This document shows positions 37,664-56,697 of a stretch of DNA of 64,000 bases, piece after piece. The stretch's first letter is position 1, and each line of letters opens with the position of its first letter. Origin of the DNA: an uncultured Hyphomicrobiaceae bacterium (GTDB lineage: Bacteria; Pseudomonadota; Alphaproteobacteria; Rhizobiales; CAMYJA01); contig CAMYJA010000007.1 of assembly GCA_947258705.1 (NCBI GenBank), positions 12,074 through 76,073 on the forward strand, given 5' to 3'. Under the pieces are notes generated by a model. The model had not been told where the DNA came from. It saw only the letters and a list, made by a program, of their open reading frames with translations, and did not search any database. Made by a program: the position numbers and the translations under genes.

Positions 37664-38305
37664 ATGATTGTTGGTGACGATACGATTTTGACAGCGACAA
37701 CACTCTATCTCGCCGCCTTGGCCGGCGGCTACCTCCTGGGGTCCATTCCCTTCGGGCTGCTGCTTACGAAATTCGCAGGGCTCGGCGACATTCGCCAAAG
37801 CGGATCAGGCAATATCGGCGCAACGAACGTTCTGCGCACCGGCAAAAAATCGCTCGCTGCCGCTACATTGTTGCTCGATATGCTGAAGGGATTCATTCCC
37901 GTATTCCTTGTTCAGCAAGTCTCGTTCTTACCCACCGCCCCGTTTCTGGCAGGAGCGGCTGCCCTTATCGGTCACGTTTTTCCGGTCTGGCTCTTGTTCA
38001 GGGGCGGCAAGGGGGTTGCGACCTATATCGGCGTTCTTTGGGCACTGGCCTGGCCGTTGGGTCTGGCGTTCTGTCTGATCTGGCTCGCGACGGCGCTCAT
38101 TACGCGCATATCGTCTCTTTCGGCCCTGGTGGCCTCCGCGCTCATACCCATCGTGCCGCTGCTTCCAGGCTCATTCATACCGTCATTATTAATAGAATTC
38201 GACCTGGTCCGCTTTCTCGCCTTCATGTCACTCGTCATCTTCTTTACGCACCGGAAAAATATCGCCCGGCTGCTGCGCGGAGAAGAATCGAGGATCGGTG
38301 AATAG
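37664..38305 (+). CDS. plsY: acyl-phosphate glycerol-3-phosphate acyltransferase
   Basis: The 213-residue integral membrane enzyme acylates glycerol-3-phosphate, the first step of phospholipid synthesis in most bacteria. The three PlsY motifs are seen: GSIPFGLLLTK, SGNIGATNVLR and GHVFPVWLLFRGGKGVAT. At least five membrane helices are visible. The C terminus is basic. Its stop overlaps the dprA start by 8 bp, so the two are co-translated. A short GGCGG/CCGCC hairpin lies in the 73-bp gap after pyrC. Confidence 0.96.
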   Translation: MIVGDDTILTATTLYLAALAGGYLLGSIPFGLLLTKFAGLGDIRQSGSGNIGATNVLRTGKKSLAAATLLLDMLKGFIPVFLVQQVSFLPTAPFLAGAAALIGHVFPVWLLFRGGKGVATYIGVLWALAWPLGLAFCLIWLATALITRISSLSALVASALIPIVPLLPGSFIPSLLIEFDLVRFLAFMSLVIFFTHRKNIARLLRGEESRIGE

Positions 38306-39497
38306 CGGGAACCGCCATAAGTCGGGGCCGGTTGCGCGCCCGGCGCCACGCACGCTCGATGACGACACGCGTCTCGCATGGCTCAGGCTGATCCGCAGCG
38401 AGAATGTCGGACCTGTTACATTCCGCGATCTAATCAATCGTTTTGGCGGTGCGGTTCAGGCCCTTGAGGCACTTCCCGATCTTGCGAAGCGTGGCGGTCT
38501 CAAGCGCAAAATCGTCATTTGCGCCCATGACAGGGCTGAGCAAGAACTCGAGCGTGCGCGCAAGCTCGGCCTGGGACTATACGCTATCGGCGAAGCCGGC
38601 TATCCGCCATGGCTCGCTCATGTGGACGCGCCGCCGCCCCTCCTTTACACCAAAGGCGACATCGGCCATCTCGATCAGCCTATCGTGTCGATCGTCGGCG
38701 CGCGCAACGGTTCCGCGGTCGGCCAGAAATTTACCCGGCTTGTCGCAAGGGAGCTCGGGGAAGCTGGATTTGTTATCGGTTCCGGACTTGCGCGCGGGAT
38801 CGATACGGCGGCGCATAAGGCCGCTCTTGAACATGGTACGGTCGCAGTTCTCGCCGGCGGCATCGACATGATTTACCCCAGTGAAAATGAAGCGCTCTAC
38901 CACGCCATTGCGGAGCGCGGTCTCCTTGTCAGCGAGCGTGAACCGGGCCTGCAGCCACGAGGGCAGGATTTTCCGCGCCGCAACCGGATCATATCGGGCA
39001 TGGCTGCGGGTGTCGTGGTTGTCGAGGCGGCGACGCGTTCGGGCTCATTGATCACGGCGCGCTTTGCTGCTGAACAGGGGCGCGAGGTATTCGCGGTCCC
39101 GGGCAATCCGCTCGATCCGCGCGCTACCGGCACCAACGGCCTGATACGCGACGGGGCGACACTGGTCACGAACAGCAAAGACATCATCGAAGCACTGGCG
39201 CCATTATTGCGGGCCGAGGACGGCTCGCAGCCCGAAGGGCAATCGCAATTGGATTTCGAAGAATCGCGTGAAGATGAGGAGCCGCTGACCGATCAGCATC
39301 TTGACGGAGAAAACGGCCTTACGGCGCGTCAGCGCGTGCTCGATGCTCTAGGGGCCAGTCCGGTGGATATTGACGAACTCGGCCGTGTTACGGAACTTGG
39401 CGCCGGCGAGCTTCAGGTCATTCTTTTGGAGTTCGACCTCGCCGGCCGGCTGACCCGCTATCCAGGACAATTGGTGGCGCTGAATGCCGATCAATGA
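38298..39497 (+). CDS. dprA: DNA processing protein DprA
   Basis: DprA loads RecA on single-stranded DNA taken up during transformation. The 399-residue protein has an N-terminal helical region, a Rossmann-like core (SIVGARNGSAVGQKF, GLARGIDTAAHKAAL, TVAVLAGGIDMIYPSEN, FPRRNRIISGMA) and a C-terminal winged helix (about 340-395). It starts with GTG and overlaps plsY. No competence genes are nearby, so it does not show that the strain is naturally competent. Confidence 0.95.
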   Translation: MNSGNRHKSGPVARPAPRTLDDDTRLAWLRLIRSENVGPVTFRDLINRFGGAVQALEALPDLAKRGGLKRKIVICAHDRAEQELERARKLGLGLYAIGEAGYPPWLAHVDAPPPLLYTKGDIGHLDQPIVSIVGARNGSAVGQKFTRLVARELGEAGFVIGSGLARGIDTAAHKAALEHGTVAVLAGGIDMIYPSENEALYHAIAERGLLVSEREPGLQPRGQDFPRRNRIISGMAAGVVVVEAATRSGSLITARFAAEQGREVFAVPGNPLDPRATGTNGLIRDGATLVTNSKDIIEALAPLLRAEDGSQPEGQSQLDFEESREDEEPLTDQHLDGENGLTARQRVLDALGASPVDIDELGRVTELGAGELQVILLEFDLAGRLTRYPGQLVALNADQ

Positions 39498-56504: not shown

Positions 56505-56613
56505 TACTCTTCAAATTGCCTTTCCATAGAAATGCTGCAATCGCGTATGGTATAATGGCGTTAAGTTGCATGACAAAAAAACACGTCCCTGCCTGCACAT
56601 GAACACAAGCGTT

Positions 56614-56650
56614 CAGTATTGACCTTCCTCCAACAGGAAGGTCAATACTG
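56614..56650. promoter_or_regulatory. symmetric CueR/MerR-type promoter-operator
   Basis: GACCTTCC, seven bases, GGAAGGTC is the core of a perfect inverted repeat with arms of 15 bp. On the plus strand it reads as TTGACC (-35, 56619-56624), a 19-bp spacer, then AATACT (-10, 56644-56649). The minus strand reads exactly the same. A 19-bp spacer and this dyad are hallmarks of CueR-family activation. It should drive the oxidase and DUF411 genes together. Confidence 0.85.
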
Positions 56651-56697
56651 CCGTCCGATCGACCAGACAGACTTTATCAGCCGCGAAGGAAAAAAGC

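Follow-up and report, generated by a model that had tools for sequence, protein, structure and literature searches.

A perfectly symmetric CueR-type site between divergent copper-type genes as a probable two-way promoter

The 64,000-nucleotide stretch of an uncultured Hyphomicrobiaceae genome analysed here (hereafter, the window) contains two divergent genes, which encode a multicopper oxidase and a DUF411 protein and are separated by a region that holds a perfect palindrome (Table 1). The palindrome lies 110 bp from the start codon of the oxidase gene and 48 bp from that of the DUF411 gene. Beyond the latter follow a GST gene and then a TetR gene, both of which are seemingly unrelated. The oxidase and the DUF411 protein represent the copper-handling targets that characterize CueR/HmrR-type promoters, with the published copper link of DUF411 being suggestive only (PMC6444534); the earlier proposal that this gene pair fits copper control is supported at the level of target gene type.

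Table 1. Genes, operator and promoter elements at the divergent copper locus (window coordinates).
Feature	Position	Strand	Remarks
Multicopper oxidase, 474 aa	55080..56504	-	Cu-oxidase_3/2/1 domains; Tat-type N-terminus MERRKFLQG
Palindrome holding both promoters	56614..56650		perfect 16-5-16
-10 AATACT, oxidase direction	56615..56620	-	start predicted near 56608 from the -10
-35 TTGACC, DUF411 direction	56619..56624	+	56619-56620 common to the opposing -10
CueR operator core ACCTTCC-N7-GGAAGGT	56622..56642		0 mismatches; consensus from PMC1526738
-35 TTGACC, oxidase direction	56640..56645	-	
-10 AATACT, DUF411 direction	56644..56649	+	19-bp spacer; start predicted near 56656 from the -10
DUF411 protein, 163 aa	56698..57189	+	CxCC motif

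The palindrome is a perfect inverted repeat of 37 bp, CAGTATTGACCTTCCT-CCAAC-AGGAAGGTCAATACTG, with its dyad centre at 56632. The first-pass annotation placed it correctly at 56614-56650, but counted 15-bp arms and a 7-bp centre by assigning the innermost pair to the centre; the arms comprise 16 bp each (56614-56629 and 56635-56650) and the centre 5 bp. These arms form the longest perfect inverted repeat of the window (loop of at most 8), with a runner-up of 12, and perfect inverted repeats in Markov-1 resamples of the window (n=10) likewise reach a maximum of 12. The exact operator core is present as a single copy in the 2.77-Mb genome, which excludes a repeat element, and a terminator is excluded by the lack of a T-tract. 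When the whole palindrome was sought with up to 3 mismatches in 398 genomes of the order, the window alone matched, and no close relative with this locus was found, which counts against the two-way reading proposed below. DUF411 relatives in 60 order-level genomes revealed no conserved site.

Sequence inspection bore out the initial reading of TTGACC, 19 bp and AATACT on both strands, in mirror image. The two promoters span 56619-56649 and 56615-56645 and share a stretch of 27 bp, within which the opposing promoter elements have just 2 bp in common. At these two positions, the A that lies opposite T1 of either -35 is position 2 of the opposing -10 and its main melting base, so that both consensuses are satisfied. 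T2 of either -35, in contrast, imposes an A on position 1 of the opposing -10 as the sole compromise of the arrangement (AATACT). The resulting -10 matches the consensus at only 4 of 6 positions, and this counts against use in both directions. The 19-bp spacer with the operator inside, which defines CueR/HmrR-type promoters, is present on both strands.

As stated in the first-pass annotation, the regulator is not encoded nearby: the window contains no MerR-family gene, and the four MerR-family genes of the genome all lie outside it. Two of these are CueR-type, and two are others. The first CueR scores 155.8 bits against a TIGR02044 cut-off of 147.4 and is encoded directly behind a copA-type ATPase, in a copA operon; its alignment with structures of E. 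coli CueR extends over 126 residues, and the two metal-binding cysteines are retained. The second, CueR-like protein is the product of a solitary gene and scores 145.6 bits, slightly under the same cut-off. The suggested genome search for a CueR was thus productive, and operator, spacing, regulator genes and copper targets together uphold the assignment as a CueR-type site.

Other CueR-like sites in the same genome precede genes for a VTT-domain membrane protein, a Rieske-copA-cueR operon, a second multicopper oxidase, an ArsP-type permease, a cytochrome c and a cation efflux protein. None of them has a usable promoter in more than one direction, and T is the first base of the stronger -10s among these one-way sites (TATCAT, TATATT). 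The VTT-domain gene and the Rieske-copA-cueR operon, which are themselves divergent, are served by two separate CueR-like sites that lie 52 bp apart (L015:2822-2894). Together with the single usable direction of the remaining sites, this pair makes the symmetric site exceptional within its own genome. The general statement that usual CueR sites provide one promoter holds for these sites as well as for E. coli copA and cueO.

Based on this geometry, we propose that the palindrome acts as a bidirectional CueR promoter, in which one operator is shared by two identical, overlapping promoters with 19-bp spacers and one dimer serves either polymerase orientation in a mutually exclusive manner; we assign this reading a probability of roughly three in four. 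In the absence of copper, the bound CueR dimer would keep both promoters closed. Activation by CueR involves a distortion of the spacer by the dimer (CueR/MerR structures, e.g. PDB 6LDI), and with Cu(I) such distortion would bring the -35 and -10 elements into line here. RNA polymerase could then load in either orientation, given the two-fold symmetry of dimer and DNA alike and the overlap of just 2 bp between the opposing elements; each loading would shut out the other, as is expected for promoters whose elements overlap over 27 bp. A single dimer would co-induce both genes, and the identical core elements would give them similar strengths; the expected starts are separated by about 48 bp, and neither falls within the operator. 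Since two polymerases cannot load together, expression of the induced genes would have matched means but be anti-correlated over time. That the dyad is used in both directions and that polymerases compete for it are predictions from the sequence.

As read from its letters, the core of the site, a symmetric operator for a symmetric dimer, favours neither orientation. Because dimer, operator and promoter cores are identical both ways, any bias must stem from the flanking DNA. Upstream of the palindrome in the DUF411 direction, an exact extended -10 (TGGTATAAT, 56548-56556, + strand) is a candidate CueR-independent promoter, and TTGTCA/TACCAT (56576-56547, - strand, 9/12) is a candidate in the oxidase direction. 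Both are possible basal promoters, which weighs against the two-way reading. In another explanation, the palindrome would act mainly in RNA or as a roadblock: transcripts from the extended -10 would cross it, and the hairpin or bound CueR would tune DUF411 expression. The exact match of this -10 and the strong hairpin formed by the strand (z = -6.3, DNA parameters) agree with such a role, but neither a T-tract nor a terminator was found, the exact CueR operator would be unnecessary for a hairpin, and related CueR sites keep the operator, not the hairpin. We consider this the least probable of the explanations weighed here.

The closest counterpart of the site was found in a Rhizobiaceae MAG (L124), where an 18-5-18 palindrome, with TTGACC-19-AATACT on both strands, separates an orthologous oxidase gene (46% identity, full length) from a cytochrome c' gene. 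A third oxidase (G412) is 63% identical to that of the Rhizobiaceae MAG and has no close divergent gene; its site is one-way, with TTGACC-19-GATACT toward the oxidase and a mirror half of TCGACC/AATGAA. Comparison of these sites indicates that the oxidase-side promoter is common to all three loci, and that the loci with a copper gene opposite have a second promoter as well. A BLAST search of plasmids returned weak matches only, one of which is of interest. Plasmid pACHL02 of the actinobacterium Pseudarthrobacter chlorophenolicus carries a near-symmetric double promoter at 38290-38327 (L157:1501-1538; CCAGTGTTGACCTTCC-N8-GGAAGGTCAATACTGG), with an 8-bp centre and a 20-bp spacer, which adjoins copper (CopC) genes and the gene of a MerR-type regulator for heavy metals. 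Furthermore, in a Hyphobacterium MAG, the CueR operator that precedes a copA-type gene is embedded in a 47-bp perfect palindrome (L125:3411-3457), without recognisable -10s and with a transposase-like gene alongside.

For a broader survey, we used an exact scan for the double-arm operator TTGACCTTCC-N7-GGAAGGTCAA, which yielded 61 stretches in about 85,000 genomes; symmetric double-promoter sites would be described by the pattern AGTATTGACCTTCC-N7-GGAAGGTCAATACT. The -10 hexamer on each side was scored against TATAAT, with at least 4/6 taken as good, and copper genes starting on each side (CopA, CueR, copper chaperone, oxidase, cytochrome c') were sought by tblastn. Sides with a copper gene had a good -10 in 48 cases and a poorer one in 16, compared with 1 and 47, respectively, for sides without a copper gene (Fisher p=1.9e-16, which is indicative only, as it is inflated by shared descent, with Paraburkholderia dominating). 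Good -10s on both sides were present at 9 of the 61 sites, all nine located between divergent copper genes. Eight of these are copper chaperone (copZ)/cueR pairs of the Burkholderia group, which form one lineage and are hence not independent, and the ninth belongs to the Rhizobiaceae MAG; at two of these nine sites, identification of the second gene relied on a longer stretch or directly on the sequence. These scores show that, in this set, a second good candidate -10 is confined to sites from which a second copper gene diverges. Counted by lineage, the window and the Rhizobiaceae MAG represent two and the Burkholderia group a third; the Pseudarthrobacter plasmid site, whose right-hand gene is ambiguous, may be a fourth.

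The eight Burkholderia-group copZ/cueR intergenic regions (L024, L034, L036, L053, L054, L056, L062 and L073) contain one conserved CueR site and, on the copZ side, a second conserved block, TTGAATTATGCC. In three copZ/cueR pairs of Achromobacter, the site is one-sided and is accompanied by another CueR-like site at a distance of 41 bp, which is a two-site answer to the same problem of serving divergent genes.

These comparisons also bear on the possibility that the palindrome is a one-way CueR promoter that drives one gene, its mirror half having arisen by palindrome-correcting (template-switch) mutation or because tight binding of CueR was selected for. A single template-switching event can turn an imperfect palindrome into a perfect one, and the Hyphobacterium palindrome demonstrates that perfect symmetry round a CueR operator can occur without recognisable -10s, both of which favour this explanation. 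The Hyphobacterium case, however, adjoins a transposase-like gene, and in the window the mirror symmetry takes in the -10s, which lie beyond the operator. In addition, two-sided good -10s occur only between divergent copper genes, and those of the Burkholderia group differ between the two sides (AATCAT/AAGAAT) and hence are not products of palindrome correction. We therefore judge a one-way promoter to be unlikely.

We lean towards the view that MerR-family promoters with such symmetry constitute a class of their own, which has evolved repeatedly. In this class, a single dimer would co-activate two divergent genes by allowing polymerase to load in either orientation, with matched levels and anti-correlated bursts as the outcome. 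The evolutionary step would be simple, as a mirror -35 and TACT are all that a one-way CueR site lacks for a second gene to be served, and the symmetric site suggests a compact building block for metal-responsive circuits that express two genes at matched levels.

Activators of the MerR family are known to switch transcription one way. From work on PsoxS/soxR, where SoxR activates soxS and blocks soxR, a study of 2026 generalises that regulators of this family invariably shut off one of the two directions of a bidirectional promoter (PMC12825309). The proposed class would be an exception to this rule, as would the two-way CueR promoter itself, if true, and the symmetric CueR site offers a clean natural test of it. 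Following the SoxR precedent and this generalisation, CueR could activate one direction here and repress the other. At PsoxS/soxR, however, SoxR sits over the start of the divergent transcript, whose promoter differs in spacing, whereas both starts expected here from the -10s fall outside 56622-56642, both promoters have the same 19-bp geometry, and the core sequence is identical for the two directions; opposite control is thus quite improbable. A search within a set of open-access papers found no description of a symmetric two-way MerR or CueR promoter.

Among known systems, the bidirectional promoters of E. coli described by Warman and Grainger share a -10 and have starts 10-23 bp apart (PMC12825309). 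They resemble the window site in their near-symmetric DNA and in the two exclusive polymerase orientations that this could allow, and PsoxS/soxR, which is one of them, is also controlled by a MerR-family regulator. In contrast, the -10s of the window site are separate, distinct and outermost, its expected starts lie about 48 bp apart, and its symmetry predicts that both directions are activated. At the mer divergent promoters, merR itself is repressed, not activated. In Gram-negative bacteria, the MerR dimer contacts these two adjacent divergent promoters, of which only the long-spacer promoter of the mer operon is activated (PMC1526738). One MerR-family dimer at two divergent promoters would be common to both systems, but the mer promoters are not mirror copies. 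CadR divergons have a proper promoter for the transporter gene only (PMC1526738). The E. coli yacC-cueO region, a CueR divergon (PMC1526738), similarly has its CueR site in the interval that separates a multicopper oxidase gene from a divergent one, but this site is one-sided by sequence, toward cueO only. PcopA and PcueO of E. coli, which are one-way, have the same operator, 19-bp spacer, -35 TTGACC and dyad offset as the window site; their mirror halves, however, contain no usable promoter (TAAACC/AAGAAA for copA and TAGTCC/AAGCCG for cueO), whereas the mirror half of the window site is identical.
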